IMG/VR virus record: IMGVR_UViG_3300030118_006066
Span: 1 to 22,332 of that record
Length of the DNA stretch: 22,332 bases
DNA from: a virus
Reading direction: 5' to 3' (one strand)
This document shows, piece by piece, positions 5 to 5,338 of the stretch (the stretch's first letter is position 1; each line of letters starts with the position of its first letter). A model generated the notes under the pieces. That model saw only the letters and a program-made list of their open reading frames with translations. It searched no databases and had not been told where the DNA came from. Both the position numbers and the translations under genes were made by a program.

Positions 5-319
5 ATGCCATCTCTTAGGTATCATGCAGGCCGAATGGTTTTGTATGAAGATAAACCTAAAGAATGGCGAGTAAAAATAAAAACAAAGCAAGGTAAATTA
101 GACTTACCTTTAGAAAGTTGTGATTTAGAACCCGCTATTTTAGAAGCCGAATATCTATATGCAGATGCTAGATGTATGAGTAGAGATCATCCTTTATGCG
201 TTGACTGTATTCATCATTTAGTAGTAAAAGCAGAATGTGGTCTTGGCATGCCAGAAGGCAAGGCAAGTGGTGGGATATGGGCTAAAGATTGTGCTTATTT
301 TTGGGAAAGAAAGATTTAG
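5..319 (+). CDS. Cys-rich small protein, function unknown (possibly 5'-truncated)
   Basis: This encodes a 104-residue protein that I cannot name. The first visible ATG is only four bases into the window and no stop lies upstream in frame, so the true start may be outside. The C-terminal half carries C57, C65, C68, C78 and C96, with H70-H71 next to the CVDC pair. It ends in an AKDCAYF segment. A CxxC pair followed by spaced cysteines and a terminal DCxxF resembles small metal-binding (zinc or iron-sulfur) proteins I associate with cyanobacteria and their phages; that is inference. Its 3' end overlaps the convergent gene at 282-566 by 38 bases. Confidence 0.6.
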   Translation: MPSLRYHAGRMVLYEDKPKEWRVKIKTKQGKLDLPLESCDLEPAILEAEYLYADARCMSRDHPLCVDCIHHLVVKAECGLGMPEGKASGGIWAKDCAYFWERKI

Positions 320-566
320 CATTGATTTTATCTATATGATCTCCTGCTTGATTAATAATTTTTACTAGTCTGTAATTTTCCTTTGATAATGCACTTATAA
401 GATCTGGTATTTCATCAGGTTCTAAACAATCTATAACGTGTCTTAAAAATACTTCTACTTTTAATTCTTCCTCAAGTGATACATCAGCCATTACCCATTT
501 TTCTACTTTTTTACGTTTTTTGGCTTGTTTTGTAAACCAATCAGACCAAGGCATAAGTATATCCAT
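282..566 (-). CDS. conserved-type phage hypothetical protein, 94 aa
   Basis: This encodes a soluble, charged 94-residue protein with no signal peptide or membrane segment. The N-terminus (MDILMPWSDWF) is followed by a basic patch (KQAKKRKK) and then an acidic and hydrophobic helical region (residues about 28-75) ending with an LVKIINQAGDHIDKI segment. The ATG is the only early start in frame; a second in-frame Met lies four codons in. No Shine-Dalgarno sequence is visible upstream. The gene converges on 5-319 and overlaps it by 38 bases, which is unusual for two real genes but acceptable in phages. The function is not recognisable. Confidence 0.55.
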   Translation of the reverse strand: MDILMPWSDWFTKQAKKRKKVEKWVMADVSLEEELKVEVFLRHVIDCLEPDEIPDLISALSKENYRLVKIINQAGDHIDKINAKSFFPKNKHNL

Positions 567-723: not shown

Positions 724-906
724 CTATAGGGGCAGTTGACTTACCTTCCTACTAGGAAAAAGATTCTGTTCCAACAAATCAACTAACCTATCATCAACAG
801 TATTGTCTGTTTTTTTGACTAAAGCTCGCATAATATCTAGTGCGAGTTTTTTTATTGCATTTCCACGAAGGAAAGTAAAGACAATAGGTTTTATAATTTT
901 TAGCAT
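724..906 (-). CDS. small phage hypothetical protein, 60 aa
   Basis: This encodes a 60-residue protein with a hydrophobic, basic N-terminus (MLKIIKPIVFTFLRGNAIKKLA), a short amphipathic helix, and a TDNTVDDRLVDLLEQNLFP motif. I associate the TDN-VDD-L-LE-LF pattern with a family of small uncharacterised phage proteins seen near lysis or tail genes. The N-terminal segment is too short and charged to be a certain membrane helix. It starts with ATG at 904-906 and lies downstream of a strong terminator (958-994), so it needs its own promoter or read-through. Its TAG stop is palindromic with that of the 25-aa frame at 646-723. Confidence 0.55.
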   Translation of the reverse strand: MLKIIKPIVFTFLRGNAIKKLALDIMRALVKKTDNTVDDRLVDLLEQNLFPSRKVSQLPL

Positions 907-957: not shown

Positions 958-994
958 AAAAACCTCTTCCTATTCCAAGGGGAAGGGGTTTTTT
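958..994 (-). terminator. intrinsic terminator (near-symmetrical)
   Basis: A 13-bp inverted repeat pairs 958-970 with 981-993, with one G-U type mismatch and a 10-base loop. A run of A on the left arm and T on the right arm flank a GC-rich core (CCTCTTCC with GGAAGGGG). Read on the minus strand it overlaps the stop codon of the gene at 993-1223 and finishes in a U-tract. The symmetry means it could also stop plus-strand transcripts. Confidence 0.75.
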
Positions 995-1223
995 AACGTC
1001 TTGGTTTTATTTCTGCTACTTTAACTTCTACTTCTTTTAAACGATGAAATACTTCTCTCATATCATCGTGCATAATTTCTATTTTATCTGTTAGTAATTC
1101 TATAGCTGTTGTATTTCGCACGAGATCATCTCTTGATTGTCTACCTCTGTATGACATAGAGCCTACAGAGACAAAACAAGCTGTAAGACAAGCTCCACCT
1201 AATGCTGCAATAACCTCTACCAC
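993..1223 (-). CDS. small membrane protein with coiled-coil tail (holin-like candidate), 76 aa
   Basis: This encodes a 76-residue protein with one N-terminal membrane segment (residues about 3-22, with two Cys). A basic stop-transfer patch (YRGRQSR) and a charged heptad-like helix (about 36-72, containing IELLTDKIEIMHDDMREV) follow. One membrane segment plus a coiled coil is a layout seen in some phage holins and XhlA-type lysis accessory proteins. There is no decisive motif, so the lysis role is inference. The start is GTG at 1221-1223, supported by a GAGG ribosome binding site at 1233-1236 with nine-base spacing. The gene is transcribed away from the membrane protein gene at 1267, only 43 bases off, and ends inside a terminator. 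Confidence 0.6.
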   Translation of the reverse strand: MVEVIAALGGACLTACFVSVGSMSYRGRQSRDDLVRNTTAIELLTDKIEIMHDDMREVFHRLKEVEVKVAEIKPRR

Positions 1224-1266: not shown

Positions 1267-1671
1267 ATGGAAACAGAAAAAAGCAAAAACCCTTTGCAAA
1301 AACTAAAAGAAAACATCACTGATAAAGAAGAACAATTAGCTTTTATATCAGTCGTAGTAAGACTTGTTGTGGTTGGTTGGAGTGGTTTTATCGTATCTCT
1401 TAACTATATAACTATACCTGGTTACAGCAATGAGCCAAAAGATATCACTTTCCCTGCAAGTCTGCTTACGGGGGCGCTAGCCAGCTTCGGTTTAGAGGGT
1501 GCAAAAAAACGTGGTGATGGAACATATAAACCTGATGAAAAACCATTAAATAAAAAAGAAGTAGAACAGTTACTAGCTACACAATCAGGTGGCTATCAAA
1601 CTATTAGAATAGAGACACCACTTAAAATTATTGGTGCTGAAGTTGTGAACAAAAAGGAGGAAAAAAAATGA
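1267..1671 (+). CDS. conserved cyanophage-type membrane protein, 134 aa
   Basis: The N-terminus is hydrophilic and basic (METEKSKNPLQKLKENITDKEEQ). A membrane helix spans about residues 24-47, and a weaker hydrophobic segment about 62-77 contains PASLLTGALASFGLEGAKK. The tail (80-134) is soluble and ends in KKEEKK. I recognise the sequence style, especially the DITFPASLLTGALASFGLEG core, as a protein recurrent in marine cyanophage genomes; its function is unknown to me. One or two membrane helices with a charged tail would fit a holin, but this is not shown. It starts the plus-strand cluster, and its stop overlaps the ATG of the next gene (ATGA, 1668-1671), so the two are probably translationally coupled. 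Confidence 0.75.
   Translation: METEKSKNPLQKLKENITDKEEQLAFISVVVRLVVVGWSGFIVSLNYITIPGYSNEPKDITFPASLLTGALASFGLEGAKKRGDGTYKPDEKPLNKKEVEQLLATQSGGYQTIRIETPLKIIGAEVVNKKEEKK
1654..1660 (+). promoter_or_regulatory. strong Shine-Dalgarno site for the secreted-protein gene at 1668
   Basis: AAGGAGG sits seven bases upstream of ATG at 1668, inside the last codons of the preceding gene. It is the best ribosome binding site in the left part of the window and suggests that the first secreted protein is made in quantity. Confidence 0.85.
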
Positions 1672-2183
1672 AAAAACTACTTCCATTGTTGCTATTAATT
1701 GCAAGTCCTAGTTATGCAGACATAACTCAAAAGTTTACAACTTCTGCACAGATCACAGTAGATATGCCATATAGCGTTACAAATAAGCTTGGTACGACTT
1801 ATTCTTTGTCAGGAAATAATATTACTCCATCTGTAACTTCTGGTGGGAGTACTACTAGTGGTGCAATTGGAGGGCTAAATGTTGGCTCGCTCACTGATGG
1901 AGTGCCTGCTCTCATACAAACTGATAAAGCTATCACAACTGCTGGTTCTGCTTTCTCAATTACAGAATCGGCAACTATTGGGGATGCGACACCATCTGCA
2001 ATAACTCCATCATCAGGAATTTCAACACTACCTCATCTAGGCGGACAGACAACCATAGGATCTGGAGGTACAGCTGGTAACTTAGGGATGAGTAGCCTTA
2101 GTAGTGGTGTCCACTCATGCACTGCAGGTGGCAGTGGTACTAGCTGTATTGGTAGCACTACAGTTACAATCCAAATTGACTAG
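1668..2183 (+). CDS. secreted beta-rich protein 1 (Sec signal peptide), cyanophage-type
   Basis: This encodes a 171-residue precursor. Residues 1-17 (MKKLLPLLLLIASPSYA) form a textbook Sec signal peptide with an AxA-like cleavage site before DITQ. The mature part is Ser/Thr/Gly-rich and low in charge, as in beta-rich extracellular or periplasmic proteins. Landmarks are a TTYSLSGNNITPS segment (about 43-55), a SAFSITESATIGD segment (about 93-106), and a C-terminal glycine-rich end with CTAGGSGTSCIG holding two Cys that could form a disulfide. I recall similar GGTAG...TAGGxGT..IG endings in cyanophage proteins of unknown function. It is followed by a second, related secreted protein whose TTG start lies inside its last codons. 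Confidence 0.8.
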   Translation: MKKLLPLLLLIASPSYADITQKFTTSAQITVDMPYSVTNKLGTTYSLSGNNITPSVTSGGSTTSGAIGGLNVGSLTDGVPALIQTDKAITTAGSAFSITESATIGDATPSAITPSSGISTLPHLGGQTTIGSGGTAGNLGMSSLSSGVHSCTAGGSGTSCIGSTTVTIQID

Positions 2184-2613
2184 ATTTTTTCTACTACTAA
2201 TTATATTGTTACCTGTCAAAAGCCTTGCAAATCCTATTGTACCCACGTTTAGAACAGGTAGCTCTAGCACAAACTCTACTAGCCAATCTGTAGTAACAGA
2301 ATCAATAACAAGCTACCAATATCGAACAGGTTATTCATTAAGTGTCTCAGGCACAAACATTGAAAGTGCTGATGTAAATGGATATATTAATTCAATACCT
2401 ACAGCAGAAGCTACACAATCAGTTAATGGAATTAATTTTTCTTATACGAGTCCTACATTGGAAGGTGTGCCTAGATGGAAAATAGTGAACGAAGGACAAC
2501 CTTTCAGTCTAGTCGAAAGTATTATTTCTCCAGGGATCGACACGATTACCCAAATAGATCGCACCATAAATACAACCACAACAACCACTGTAGAAACTAC
2601 ATTTGGGCAATAG
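2176..2613 (+). CDS. secreted beta-rich protein 2, paralogue of the preceding gene (TTG start)
   Basis: The longest frame would open at GTG 2104, but I place the start at TTG 2176-2178. From there the product begins MTRFFLLLIILLPVKSLA, a clean signal peptide, with the mature protein starting NPIVP. The result is about 145 residues. TTG overlaps the previous stop by eight bases, which fits translational coupling. The mature protein is Ser/Thr-rich and neutral. It has a YRTGYSLSVSGTNIES segment and an EGQPFSLVESIISPG segment matching YSLSGNNI and SAFSITESATI of the upstream protein in the same order, so the two look like an old tandem duplication. The C-terminus is a Thr-rich run (INTTTTTTVETTFGQ). 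The function is unknown. Confidence 0.7.
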   Translation: MTRFFLLLIILLPVKSLANPIVPTFRTGSSSTNSTSQSVVTESITSYQYRTGYSLSVSGTNIESADVNGYINSIPTAEATQSVNGINFSYTSPTLEGVPRWKIVNEGQPFSLVESIISPGIDTITQIDRTINTTTTTTVETTFGQ

Positions 2614-3188
2614 CTCTTATACTTTGTCCTACAAAAGTTTTAGCTAATACCACAGTTGCTTCTCCCAGTAGCCAAGCACAAGGAGTAGTTAATAATAATG
2701 CGACCATGATAGCTCCGCAAAGCACTCCTCAATTTAGGATGTCTCAAGGTATAGTTTGTAGTTCGCCAAGTCTTACAATTACACCCTATGTAACAGATGC
2801 TTGGTCATTTAATAGACCGATAGAAACTGTGACTAGACAAAATATTTACGATGAAGATACTGGTGCTATTAAATATGTACAAGAAACACCAAGATTTGAA
2901 AAAGATAATTATAACTTAAATTATGGAATCTCAGCACAAATTAGTATTCCGTTAGGCAAAGCACCTGACTTATGCCTTAAAGCTACAGAAGTAAATATTA
3001 AGAATCAAGAGTTGTTATATCAAAAGCAAATGTTAGAACTTGCAATGTTTCGTTTGAAGGTATGTGGAGAGCAGGCGAATCTCGGTGTAACTTTTGTTGG
3101 TAAGTATGCAAAAATATGCGAAGGTATTAAAGTAACAGTACCGCCAAATCAGGTCATCCCACATACGCACGAAATAAAGACTAAGTAG
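2475..3188 (+). CDS. secreted or membrane-associated protein 3 (cyanophage-type); start uncertain
   Basis: The only canonical start in frame is ATG 2475, giving 237 residues. However, the first 40 residues overlap the previous gene and read as low-quality His/Asn/Arg sequence. A hydrophobic export-like segment, YIWAIALILCPTKVLA, follows at about residues 42-57 with mature-looking sequence after it. A non-standard start such as ATT 2601 or ATA 2610 would give about 190 residues and mimic the overlap of the two upstream genes. Features of the body are VVNNNATMIAP, a YVTDAWSFNRPIETVTRQNIYD segment, SAQISIPLG, a helical QNQELLYQKQMLELAMFRLK-like region, and four cysteines. I recognise it as a recurrent cyanophage protein of unknown function. 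It converges on 3181-3786 with an eight-base overlap. Confidence 0.65.
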   Translation: MENSERRTTFQSSRKYYFSRDRHDYPNRSHHKYNHNNHCRNYIWAIALILCPTKVLANTTVASPSSQAQGVVNNNATMIAPQSTPQFRMSQGIVCSSPSLTITPYVTDAWSFNRPIETVTRQNIYDEDTGAIKYVQETPRFEKDNYNLNYGISAQISIPLGKAPDLCLKATEVNIKNQELLYQKQMLELAMFRLKVCGEQANLGVTFVGKYAKICEGIKVTVPPNQVIPHTHEIKTK

Positions 3189-3786
3189 ATTTATCTTTTT
3201 TCTTTGTTAGTTTCTTTATTAAATTTTTAACTAATGGTTTTACTAGATTTAAAAGAATAGGAGTAGTCGCAGCCACACTAGCGATAACAGCAGTAGAGAC
3301 AATAGTGCTAGGTTGTGGAATATATTGGTCGATAAAAGGTACTTTTTCCCAGACCGCATTGCACGAACCATCAATTTCTCTTGTATAGTTTAACAGTCTT
3401 TCAAGCCTTAACTCATTTTTAAAATCGCCTTTTCGATATGGTGCATTTTTAGGTGGGCATTGTTTGTATTCCTCTTCTTTCTTTTTTTCTTTTGGAATTT
3501 GTGGTTTTGGTTTGCCTTCTGTTAATTCTTCTTGTTCTGTAAGAGGTGGTTGCTGTTCTATAATAATTAAATTTTGTGCATCATATATCAAAGGTGTAAA
3601 ACTTGGATAAGGACAATTTGTTGTAACACCATTTGGGTCATCTATTAGTAAGTTTCTATTACCTGTATTTTTTGTATCACGATGATAAGAGGTGCAACCA
3701 ATAACTTCTATATCTGAAGTAATAAATGATGGTAATGGTACTTCTGGTATATGAATATCTGGAATAACTATTTCTGGTATTTCCAA
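3181..3786 (-). CDS. Cys-containing protein with C-terminal membrane anchor (TTG start), 201 aa
   Basis: The start is TTG at 3786-3784, directly after the TAA of the preceding gene and in the same frame. The N-terminus is an Ile-Pro repeat (EIPEIVIPDIHIPEVPLPSF). A DIEVIGCTSYHRDTKNTGNR segment follows, then an acidic/basic Pro-rich linker (about 78-108), a CPPKNAPYRKGDFKNELRLER region, and a C-terminal hydrophobic helix (about 161-182) ending in a Lys-rich tail (KNLIKKLTKKKDKST). Cysteines are at 31, 58, 110 and 142. By the positive-inside rule the Lys tail faces the cytoplasm, which would put the Cys domain outside although there is no signal peptide. I recall related proteins in cyanophages without a known function. 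The Pro-rich and Cys features make a spanin-like role conceivable but unproven. Confidence 0.65.
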   Translation of the reverse strand: MEIPEIVIPDIHIPEVPLPSFITSDIEVIGCTSYHRDTKNTGNRNLLIDDPNGVTTNCPYPSFTPLIYDAQNLIIIEQQPPLTEQEELTEGKPKPQIPKEKKKEEEYKQCPPKNAPYRKGDFKNELRLERLLNYTREIDGSCNAVWEKVPFIDQYIPQPSTIVSTAVIASVAATTPILLNLVKPLVKNLIKKLTKKKDKST

Positions 3787-4017
3787 TTATATTCCAAGTT
3801 TTTTAGGTAATTGAATTGATTCTCCTGTTGTCTTTGGTAGTGCATTATTCATAACATTAGGCATAAGTCCTTTTACATTACCCATGACTTGATTCATTAT
3901 TTTGGCTTTAAACTGTTCAGATGTTACATATTTATACCCAAAATATCCTCCTCCAATAACAGAAGTTACCATTATAAATGAAAGGATACTTAAAACATTT
4001 GCAATTTTTTGAAACAT
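3787..4017 (-). CDS. signal-anchor small membrane protein, 76 aa
   Basis: This encodes a 76-residue protein with a short basic N-terminus (MFQK) and one membrane segment (about 7-29, IANVLSILSFIMVTSVIGGGYF). A soluble part follows, ending LPKTTGESIQLPKKLGI. The expected topology is N-in, C-out, putting the C-terminal domain in the periplasm. Its TAA (3789-3787) is followed at once and in frame by the TTG start of the next gene, so the two form an uninterrupted frame except for one stop codon. Its ATG shares the CATG palindrome at 4015-4018 with a plus-strand ATG of a small candidate gene. The family looks cyanophage-typical; the function is unknown. Confidence 0.65.
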   Translation of the reverse strand: MFQKIANVLSILSFIMVTSVIGGGYFGYKYVTSEQFKAKIMNQVMGNVKGLMPNVMNNALPKTTGESIQLPKKLGI

Positions 4018-4165
4018 GGTAAAACAGGCAGTACTAAAAGCAATAGGTCATGTAAGTATTATATCCATGCTCCTAATTCTGCCAACTGTTATACCCTGTT
4101 ACCTGTTTTTATCTATGATGACTAAAACTTATACTTCAAGCCAAGCTTCGTTCCATAAGAATTAG
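4016..4165 (+). CDS. candidate 49-aa membrane peptide
   Basis: A 49-codon frame fills the 104-base gap between the two minus-strand genes here. The product begins MVKQAVLKAIGH and has one clear membrane segment (about residues 14-34, with ISMLLILPTVIPCYLFL). It ends in a polar tail (MMTKTYTSSQASFHKN). A basic N-terminus before the helix predicts N-in topology. Against it: no Shine-Dalgarno sequence, and the last 44 bases lie antisense to the beta-barrel gene. For it: a natural membrane-protein sequence in an otherwise empty gap next to other envelope genes. Without homologues this remains a candidate. Confidence 0.4.
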   Translation: MVKQAVLKAIGHVSIISMLLILPTVIPCYLFLSMMTKTYTSSQASFHKN

Positions 4166-4475
4166 TTGTATCTGTAACGATAGAAAACTCTCCATAAACA
4201 TCAACTTTATCTGAAGCTGTTACAGAACCACCAACTTTACCAGAGAAGTTTGTGCTTGAGTCACCACCATCAGGGTTGTTAAGATACGCACCACCTTGAA
4301 TATAGTAGCTACCAAAGGCATTGCCACCTTCGTACCCTAAATGAGCGTCCGTTCCGCTTCCTGTAAAATTTTTCCCTTGGTAAGATCCGTTATTTTCAAT
4401 ATTTAAATAGAATCCTGCAAAGGCAGGTGTTGATAGTGCTGATGCAGCAACTATAGTTAAAGCTTTTTTTAGCAT
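4122..4475 (-). CDS. small outer-membrane beta-barrel (porin-like) protein
   Basis: This encodes a 117-residue precursor. Residues 1-20 (MLKKALTIVAASALSTPAFA) are a strong Sec signal peptide ending in AFA. The mature part of about 97 residues alternates polar and hydrophobic residues with many Gly, Asn and aromatics (GFYLNIENNGSY, GSYYIQGGAYL, KVDVYGEFSIV, GTKLGLKYKF). It ends in a C-terminal Phe, the classic Bam recognition signature of Gram-negative outer-membrane barrels. The size suits a barrel of about six to eight strands, as in small OmpA/OmpX-like barrels. I recall related porin-like proteins in cyanophages. It probably inserts in the host outer membrane during infection; whether for exclusion, permeability or lysis is unknown. 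Confidence 0.75.
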   Translation of the reverse strand: MLKKALTIVAASALSTPAFAGFYLNIENNGSYQGKNFTGSGTDAHLGYEGGNAFGSYYIQGGAYLNNPDGGDSSTNFSGKVGGSVTASDKVDVYGEFSIVTDTTNSYGTKLGLKYKF

Positions 4476-4523
4476 AATTTATAAAAATTAATTCGTTATA
4501 TGCTAAACGATTCTATTTTTTTT

Positions 4524-4712
4524 TCAAGTTTCTTCTTGTTCTTCATCTTGATTTGCTTTCTTAATTTCCTCAAGAACAGCAATAGCACCCCTAAGTTCAA
4601 TTAATTTAATCTCACAATTTTTTACAACTGATTCAGCTTCTTGATAATTTTTTGCAATCTGTTGTTGTTCACTAAGTAGTGCAGCTAGTTTTTGATCTAC
4701 AGTAAGTGCCAT
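4524..4712 (-). CDS. small coiled-coil protein, 62 aa
   Basis: This encodes a 62-residue, almost entirely helical protein (MALTVDQKLAALLSEQQQ...) with heptad-like Leu/Ile spacing over residues about 5-52 and a very acidic tail (QDEEQEET). It has no signal peptide or membrane segment and one Cys. It could form a homodimer or trimer, or bridge another helical protein. I recall similar short MALT-type coiled coils in cyanophages without an assigned role. It has intergenic spacers on both sides (4476-4523 and 4713-4750), both very AT-rich, so it may be separately transcribed. Confidence 0.65.
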   Translation of the reverse strand: MALTVDQKLAALLSEQQQIAKNYQEAESVVKNCEIKLIELRGAIAVLEEIKKANQDEEQEET

Positions 4713-4750: not shown

Positions 4751-5338
4751 TTAATATAACAACTCAATCGTTGAATCGCCATCACCAAACATACCTTTAG
4801 GCATTATGTTAAAAGCAAGTGACCGTCTAACCTTTTCTTTATTTGGATTTGAGTAATGGTAAATCCAACTAGGAAATAAAAGTAATAAATTATGCTCAGG
4901 TTTAACAGCTATATCAGAACACATTAAATTAGATTTATATTTACCAATTTGAAATGGGATAGTATTATAAATTGGATTTTTAAATATCAAAGGGCAAGTT
5001 TTATCAGTATATTCATCAAAATAAAAAACACCACTAAAAAAACTATTTCTATGATTATGGTAATGCACTGATTCATTTACCCCTAATTTAGTCATCCATG
5101 AAGTAGTAATATCAAATTCGCAATTATATTCAAAACACTCATTTATAAATGAGTCTATATAAGATTTCAAAACTTTTTTAGCTTTAGGATATAAATTAAG
5201 TACATCCATTTGCTTTTTATAATTTTTTATTGGTTGACCATTTCCACTAACATGCACATCATGTTTTTTTAATTCATTTAAATTTTCTTTTAAAACTTCA
5301 GTTGCAAATAAATATGAAAAAGGTTTAATTAATTCCAT
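4751..5338 (-). CDS. 2OG-Fe(II) oxygenase-like protein
   Basis: This encodes a 195-residue protein resembling the putative 2OG-Fe(II) oxygenase family common in cyanophages (PF13759/TIGR02466 type, named from memory). The iron-binding motif appears as H94-x-H96 in HNHRNSFFSGVFYFD, matching the family's HxHPNSxLSGVYY pattern. The distal histidine is H161 in PSWIYHYSNPN. The 2-oxoglutarate-binding arginine is probably R171 or R172 in RRSLAFN. These enzymes couple oxidative decarboxylation of 2-oxoglutarate to substrate hydroxylation; the phage substrate is unknown. The gene starts three bases after the stop of the 443-aa tail protein gene, so it is probably co-translated with tail genes. This raises the idea that it modifies a virion protein. 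All core residues are present. Confidence 0.85.
   Translation of the reverse strand: MELIKPFSYLFATEVLKENLNELKKHDVHVSGNGQPIKNYKKQMDVLNLYPKAKKVLKSYIDSFINECFEYNCEFDITTSWMTKLGVNESVHYHNHRNSFFSGVFYFDEYTDKTCPLIFKNPIYNTIPFQIGKYKSNLMCSDIAVKPEHNLLLLFPSWIYHYSNPNKEKVRRSLAFNIMPKGMFGDGDSTIELLY

Follow-up and report, generated by a model that had tools for sequence, protein, structure and literature searches.

Within a 22,332-nucleotide stretch of viral DNA (IMG/VR record IMGVR_UViG_3300030118_006066, positions 1 to 22,332, hereafter the window) lies a cassette of six envelope-directed proteins, encoded at 1267-4017. On balance, this cassette is probably a host-envelope disruption (lysis) module of marine picocyanophages that is not homologous to holins, endolysins or spanins. 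Two results carry this reading. A conserved set of predicted inner-membrane and exported proteins is shared by three unrelated lineages of tailed phages with the same hosts. Judged by gene order and family matches, the cassette also occupies the lysis slot of T7-like cyanophages and is nearly mutually exclusive with canonical endolysins. By lysing Prochlorococcus and Synechococcus, cyanophages turn much of the ocean's primary production into dissolved matter.

The window comes from a relative of the Prochlorococcus siphophages MED4-117 and MED4-184, and its remainder is a lambda-type tail operon. Open reading frame (ORF) positions, hydropathy and family matches divide the six proteins between two converging arms, one on the + strand (1267, 1668, 2176, 2475) and one on the - strand (3787, 3181). 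A preliminary description of this DNA had counted at least six envelope-directed proteins in two convergent groups meeting at 3181-3188, with no endolysin, and each of these points holds: the ORFs lie where it put them, with hydropathy and family matches in agreement; the stop codons of the two arms overlap by 8 nucleotides in the window, and the junction has a median gap of -8 nucleotides across 125 homologous loci; and family searches matched no endolysin family anywhere in the window. The cassette includes no recognisable peptidoglycan hydrolase, nor does MED4-117, the closest full relative, in the families tested. The features, named below by their PHROG family or start position, are as follows.

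724..906, -, small protein, phrog_2738 ('IIKP' family); PHROG E 2e-18
993..1223, -, protein with an N-terminal membrane segment and coiled coil, phrog_26178, an optional member; hydropathy and family match
1267..1671, +, inner-membrane protein, DUF6450 (PF20048; T4-GC 218); Pfam E 2e-21, above cut-off
1668..2183, +, exported beta-rich protein, phrog_564 (T4-GC 237); PHROG E 7e-33
2176..2613, +, exported protein, phrog_650 / DUF6322 (T4-GC 236), TTG start; PHROG E 1.5e-30, Pfam E 1e-20
2475..3188, +, exported protein, phrog_848/1755 (T4-GC 235), ATG start; PHROG E 1.5e-57
2475..2613, +, two-frame overlap of the 650 and 848 genes, 139 nucleotides; stop-free -1 frame
3181..3786, -, Pro-rich four-Cys protein, phrog_570 (T4-GC 234), TTG start; PHROG E 2e-26
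3787..4017, -, signal-anchor protein of 76 residues, phrog_568 (T4-GC 414); PHROG E 1e-16
4122..4475, -, outer-membrane beta-barrel, Phage_OMP PF24653; Pfam E 4e-36

Homologous loci were fetched via 848 and so show that the other genes accompany 848, not the converse. Among 138 such loci from siphophages and T4-like phages, the order 564> 650> 848> <570 (<219) <568 is kept in practically all that are long enough, a grouping that by gene order is far beyond chance. The T4-like phage S-SSM5 reads T4-GC 237>, 236>, 235>, <234, <219, <414, <218, and homologues of T4-GC 237, 236, 235, 234 and 414 are met in the window in order, >>> <<. The family of the 1267 protein merged in iterative searches with T4-GC 218 of S-SSM5. 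This DUF6450 gene stands at the head of the + arm in siphophages, the window included, and at the end of the - arm in T4-like phages. T4-GC 219 is absent from the window and, among the 138 fetched loci, was seen in T4-like ones only. A 180-residue ORF resembling it (PPVSEYSSYE motif) lies between TerS and TerL in one podovirus contig (L221), and the family may not be confined to T4-like phages. Because 50 of the 51 siphophage loci that could be tested have phrog_2738 next to the cassette, this gene belongs to the neighbourhood and the unit extends left to 724-906 (-); it was also found in 11 of 14 cyanophage records.

The 848 family was found in 442 of 50,697 phage records, all of them cyanophage, Synechococcus or Prochlorococcus phage, or marine/uncultured. 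Phages with the cassette include S-SSM5, S-TIM5, MED4-117, MED4-184, P-SSM7, NATL2A-133, S-RIP1, SS120-1, P-SSP7, Syn9 and P-SSM2. T4-GC 218/219/234/235/237 and a 'plasmid stability' protein were recorded in T4-like cyanophages in 2010 with no function assigned (Sullivan et al. 2010, PMC3037559); the passages of that study that concern them propose that the cassette is mobile, and siphophages and podoviruses are not covered there. What is new, as judged by homology, is that the cassette is also present in lambda-type siphophages such as the source of the window, and that it occurs in T7-like podoviruses as four core families.

In the T7-like cyanopodoviruses the genes run 570> DUF6450> 650> 848> phrog_2738> TerS> (TerL), all on one strand. 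The run is complete in 50 of 83 podovirus loci, most of the others being cut by contig ends, and phrog_2738 comes straight after 848 and before TerS in 75 of the 83. Homology is strong for DUF6450 (E 3e-32), 650 (E 5e-32) and 848 (E 2e-59). It is weaker for 570, whose podovirus homologue (phrog_9426; hhalign probability 89.7, E 1.9e-6) is short and lacks the four Cys, sharing the C-terminal segment and basic tail. No homologue of phrog_564 or phrog_568 was detected in the podovirus loci. A co-occurrence search of the kind the preliminary description had proposed found genes that travel together, in 138 siphophage and T4-like loci and 83 podovirus loci, and are not scattered. Its idea of one multi-part unit stands to the extent that the genes are co-inherited in a kept order; the outer-membrane barrel at 4122, which it had listed among the envelope proteins, is only loosely linked, and an apparatus that ends in this barrel is not supported. 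This protein has a signal peptide and scores 124 bits against a Pfam cut-off of 27, and we do not count it as a cassette part because it adjoins the cassette in only 8 of 47 testable siphophage loci and its family, PF24653, is found at other places in many cyanophages.

The podovirus position is informative. In phage T7 the order is tail fibre 17, holin 17.5, TerS 18, spanins 18.5/18.7 and TerL 19. In P-SSP7 the cassette run is genes 42-46, between the tail-fibre genes and TerS. Two cassette-less podoviruses have an endolysin in the same slot, P60 (gp37, phrog_181, E 3e-31) and S-CBP42, and 14 further P60-like contigs have an endolysin, small genes and then TerS.

The distribution of the cassette is reciprocal to that of endolysins. 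Eleven cyanophages with a GH19-type endolysin or a T4-type lysozyme lack 848 (P60, S-CBP42, KBS-S-2A, S-B28, B23, S-B68, S-CREM2, S-N03, ME01, S-PM2 and ACG-2014f), and phrog_650 was found in none of the ten of these that were tested for it. S-PM2, whose T4-type lysozyme stands alone (PF00959, E 1e-22; annotated as a putative lysin), is named in the passages of the 2010 study as the sole cyanomyovirus without the cassette (PMC3037559). Ten cassette phages gave no match to phrog_181, Amidase_2 or M15_4, and PF00959 matched once, inside a 953-codon ORF of S-SSM5. For this 11 by 10 table a Fisher test returns 3e-6, a figure that describes the contrast and is not a probability, since the phages are related and hand-picked. 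The reciprocity carries weight because the same contrast recurs separately within podoviruses, siphophages and myoviruses. Additionally, a GH19 model that was built from 52 endolysin loci and recovers all 52 found an endolysin of this type in none of 222 cassette loci, most of which are partial genomes. Two other phages are exceptions. PSS2 has no 848, and the models used found no lysozyme in it; it has been described with one (PMC2784084). S-CAM7, where a lysozyme occurs together with a distant 848-like protein, was excluded from the table as ambiguous. At its locus (L295; 4282-4788, 6538-6981) the 848-like exported protein has an ordinary start codon, and some 2 kb away is a phage gene that bears a type IV prepilin signature (GFTLIELMVVVAIVGVLS).

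In two contigs a wall hydrolase is a near neighbour of the cassette, which points to lysis: a GH19 endolysin lies at most 0.5 kb after it in L259, and in L148 TerS and TerL flank a T4-type lysozyme some 1.1 kb downstream of the cassette. The podovirus slot, the endolysin reciprocity and this adjacency make lysis the best of the three functions that the preliminary description had offered; for the other two, exclusion of other phages and nutrient uptake, no positive evidence emerged. We found no earlier proposal of a lysis role for the cassette in the open-access literature, most subscription papers being outside that search.

Several observations weigh against a lysis role. L259 and L148 carry the cassette together with a wall hydrolase, so replacement is not absolute, and Syn5 has neither the cassette nor the endolysins tested, so another route exists. 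In some myoviruses with this type of cassette, the virion contains other wall hydrolases (S-SCSM1, PMC9602691). A recognisable peptidoglycan hydrolase is missing from the cassette itself, and for none of its proteins is there a functionally characterised homologue, a relative in the PDB or a confidently predicted fold (mean predicted local distance difference test, pLDDT, 61 and 55). In T4-like phages the cassette sits among replication genes (gp43, regA, gp62) and not beside a known lysis gene. Finally, the reciprocity table is small and sampled by hand from related phages.

The best of the alternatives is that the proteins remodel the envelope and exclude superinfecting phages, coating or altering the periplasm and outer membrane of the infected cell and so blocking adsorption or injection by other cyanophages. 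Every protein is envelope-directed, the cassette tracks the host and not the virion type, it is common to phages that compete for the same hosts, and its place among replication genes in T4-like phages would suit such a role. We nevertheless consider exclusion unlikely: it leaves the podovirus endolysin slot and the endolysin reciprocity unexplained, and there was no noteworthy match to known defence or exclusion families. There is likewise a small chance that the exported-looking proteins are virion or entry components, as minor structural parts. The podovirus cassette follows straight after the tail-fibre genes, and passages of the 2010 study indicate that several phages of this family have unassigned virion proteins (PMC3037559). 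Yet these proteins accompany three virion types that are unrelated to each other, export signals conserved at the N-terminus would be unusual for virions assembled in the cytoplasm, and the S-TIM5 annotation labels several neighbours as virion structural and not the cassette genes.

A part in nutrient uptake or stress adaptation, for example in phosphate acquisition with a phage PstS, is improbable; pstS, a phage barrel (DUF680/T4-GC 241) and hsp20 do adjoin the cassette in some T4-like phages, but just 5 of the 138 loci fetched, every one of them T4-like, have pstS, none lies near the cassette in siphophage loci, and none is annotated beside the podovirus cassettes examined. Least credible is the 2010 suggestion that this is a selfish mobile cassette maintained by its 'plasmid stability' gene: the block does stand at different places in different phage types and mobility is proposed in passages of that study (PMC3037559), but it has no recombinase, and the protein concerned is a 76-residue signal-anchor protein with no Pfam support that was not found in podoviruses.

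The preliminary description had placed the start of a third secreted protein at about 2601. No start codon is present there, and the 848 frame opens instead at a conserved ATG at 2475, within the 650 gene, overlapping the 3' end of that gene in the -1 frame; the same overlap is seen in all three phage types. Most 848 sequences have no start codon shortly before the hydrophobic core. Within a lineage, the distance from the 650 stop to this start is fixed, at -136 for siphophages, at -163, -169 or -175 for T4-like phages and at -205 for podoviruses. It is ATG in 61 and GTG in 1 of 62 siphophage sequences, and ATG in 60 and GTG in 7 of 71 podovirus sequences. All 175 distinct sequences are stop-free over the last 45 codons of the -1 frame, where synonymous shuffling leads one to expect about 22, and just upstream of the overlap the -1 frame has a mean of 4 stops in siphophages and T4-like phages. 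Given the open frame in the overlap, the stops upstream and the fixed start, 848 is most likely translated through the overlap. The predicted protein would then most likely have, ahead of its signal core, a leader of some 45-68 residues enriched in Arg, Lys, His and Asn. The annotated starts of 848 are often wrong.

Three other readings of these frames were set aside. An ATT start near 2601 was rejected since relatives have Ile, Leu, Val or Phe at this position and thus no fixed start codon. A -1 ribosomal frameshift fusing 650 and 848 is not favoured because a start codon is kept at a fixed place within each lineage. Stop-codon readthrough from 3787 into 3181, which are in the same frame here and in MED4-117, was discarded because other loci are out of frame or split by T4-GC 219. 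A scan for promoters and terminators gave results near chance level and was uninformative.

By hydropathy the DUF6450 protein has two hydrophobic segments, a strong one that begins at residue 25 and a weaker one around 66; as a small inner-membrane protein of one to three segments, it is laid out like a holin. We would call the protein holin-like by size and layout alone, properties that do not make a holin. In contig L283 (6231-7681) a DUF6450 gene adjoins a GH19-type endolysin where the rest of the cassette is absent, an arrangement that would fit a holin-like partner, and DUF6450-like matches are present in the endolysin-bearing phages S-B68, S-N03 and ME01. The 1668 and 2176 proteins each have an N-terminal hydrophobic segment that ends in an Ala-x-Ala-type site, and their families, phrog_564 and phrog_650, cross-match and are paralogues. 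In the window, the 848 protein has a leader of about 45 residues, then a signal-peptide core, then a domain with four invariant Cys. Its predicted structure (alignment A1, 49 sequences) combines a long beta-hairpin with a 40-residue helix at a mean pLDDT of 61; this model, which matched no PDB fold better than E 0.17 and gave weak matches to long beta-hairpin proteins only, was not used, and the model of 564 was also poor (pLDDT 55). Sequence-profile searches of the PDB found no relative for the cassette proteins.

The 3181 protein contains four Cys and, towards its C-terminus, a hydrophobic segment at residues 161-179 with a basic tail. Its topology is uncertain: there is no N-terminal signal peptide, yet the four conserved Cys and the basic C-terminus suggest an N-out orientation. 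The 3787 protein shows an N-terminal anchor and a short tail by hydropathy. No credible Pfam match was found for a 'plasmid stability' domain in it; the name is a PHROG label only and is unsupported for phrog_568. It has served as an argument for mobility of the cassette and for pseudolysogeny.

Among the neighbours, the 993-1223 gene (phrog_26178) lies close to the cassette in 16 of the 51 siphophage loci that could be tested, and the layout of its product resembles that of phrog_12220, a small protein beside TerS in S-RIP1, P60 and Syn5. A 2OG-Fe(II) oxygenase gene (phrog_81) lies between the cassette and the tail operon at 4751-5338 (-), and a 2OG-Fe(II) oxygenase-like ORF (884-1585) stands immediately before the cassette in podovirus contig L148. 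The ORFs at 282-566 (-) and 5-319 (+) of the window are without a convincing family match.

If the cassette is a lysis module, the DUF6450 protein may act in a holin-like way in the inner membrane, where two further proteins would also be placed: the Pro-rich, Cys-containing 3181 protein, which has a C-terminal anchor and a cationic tail, and the signal-anchor 3787 protein. The exported 650 and 564 proteins and the four-Cys 848 protein would face the periplasm and outer membrane, and the overlap of 650 and 848 would keep these two exported parts co-translated. Once assembled, the parts could connect the inner membrane to the outer one and, late in infection, break through the envelope. The cassette would thereby do the job of a spanin and, where no endolysin is present, might aid or replace the breakage of peptidoglycan. 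A wider proposal, which we advance tentatively as possible rather than probable, is that this is a lysis apparatus common to marine picocyanophages of all three tail types, made up of inner-membrane, periplasmic and perhaps outer-membrane proteins and unrelated to holins, endolysins and spanins, which moved as a block from one unrelated phage lineage to another and replaced endolysin lysis in most of these phages.

The cassette supplies named candidate lysis genes in well-studied isolates, namely genes 42-46 of P-SSP7 and the corresponding genes of Syn9, P-SSM2 and S-SSM5. It also reveals a conserved overlapping gene that gene callers mis-start, and the misleading 'plasmid stability' label used in the pseudolysogeny argument is removed. 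In a survey of spanins, cyanophages make up 20 of 91 'spanin-less' phages, with P-SSM2, P-SSP7, Syn9 and S-SSM5 among those listed (PMC6139136).

Among described gene sets, one of the closest is the T4-GC 218/219/234/235/237 cluster of cyanomyoviruses, which has the same families, order and convergent arms as the window; the window differs in being from a siphophage, in lacking T4-GC 219, in having DUF6450 at the head of the + arm and in having phrog_2738 adjacent. Genes 42-46 of P-SSP7, homologues of 570, DUF6450, 650, 848 and phrog_2738 in a single run before TerS, differ from the window in that they lie on one strand and no homologue of phrog_564 or phrog_568 was detected. The endolysin of P60 and S-CBP42 (phrog_181) has the same genome position and the same small neighbours (phrog_12220, and phrog_2738 in relatives) and, in contrast to the cassette, is a recognisable peptidoglycan hydrolase. 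The Rz/Rz1 spanins and the T7 17.5-18.7 region pair inner-membrane with exported partners, as the cassette is predicted to do, and share with it overlapping frames and genes beside TerS. Spanin genes habitually overlap in this way, with -1 overlaps known among them (PMC6139136), but the overlap of 650 and 848 does not by itself prove a function. Unlike two-component spanins, the cassette has more components and no sequence relation to them, and it has no lipobox, the o-spanin mark, since no Cys preceded by Gly, Ala or Ser occurs in the signal region of any exported cassette protein. Because it has neither a lipobox nor a wall hydrolase, we do not class it with the spanins or the holin-endolysin systems; from its position and distribution, and these only, we infer that it may work like them.

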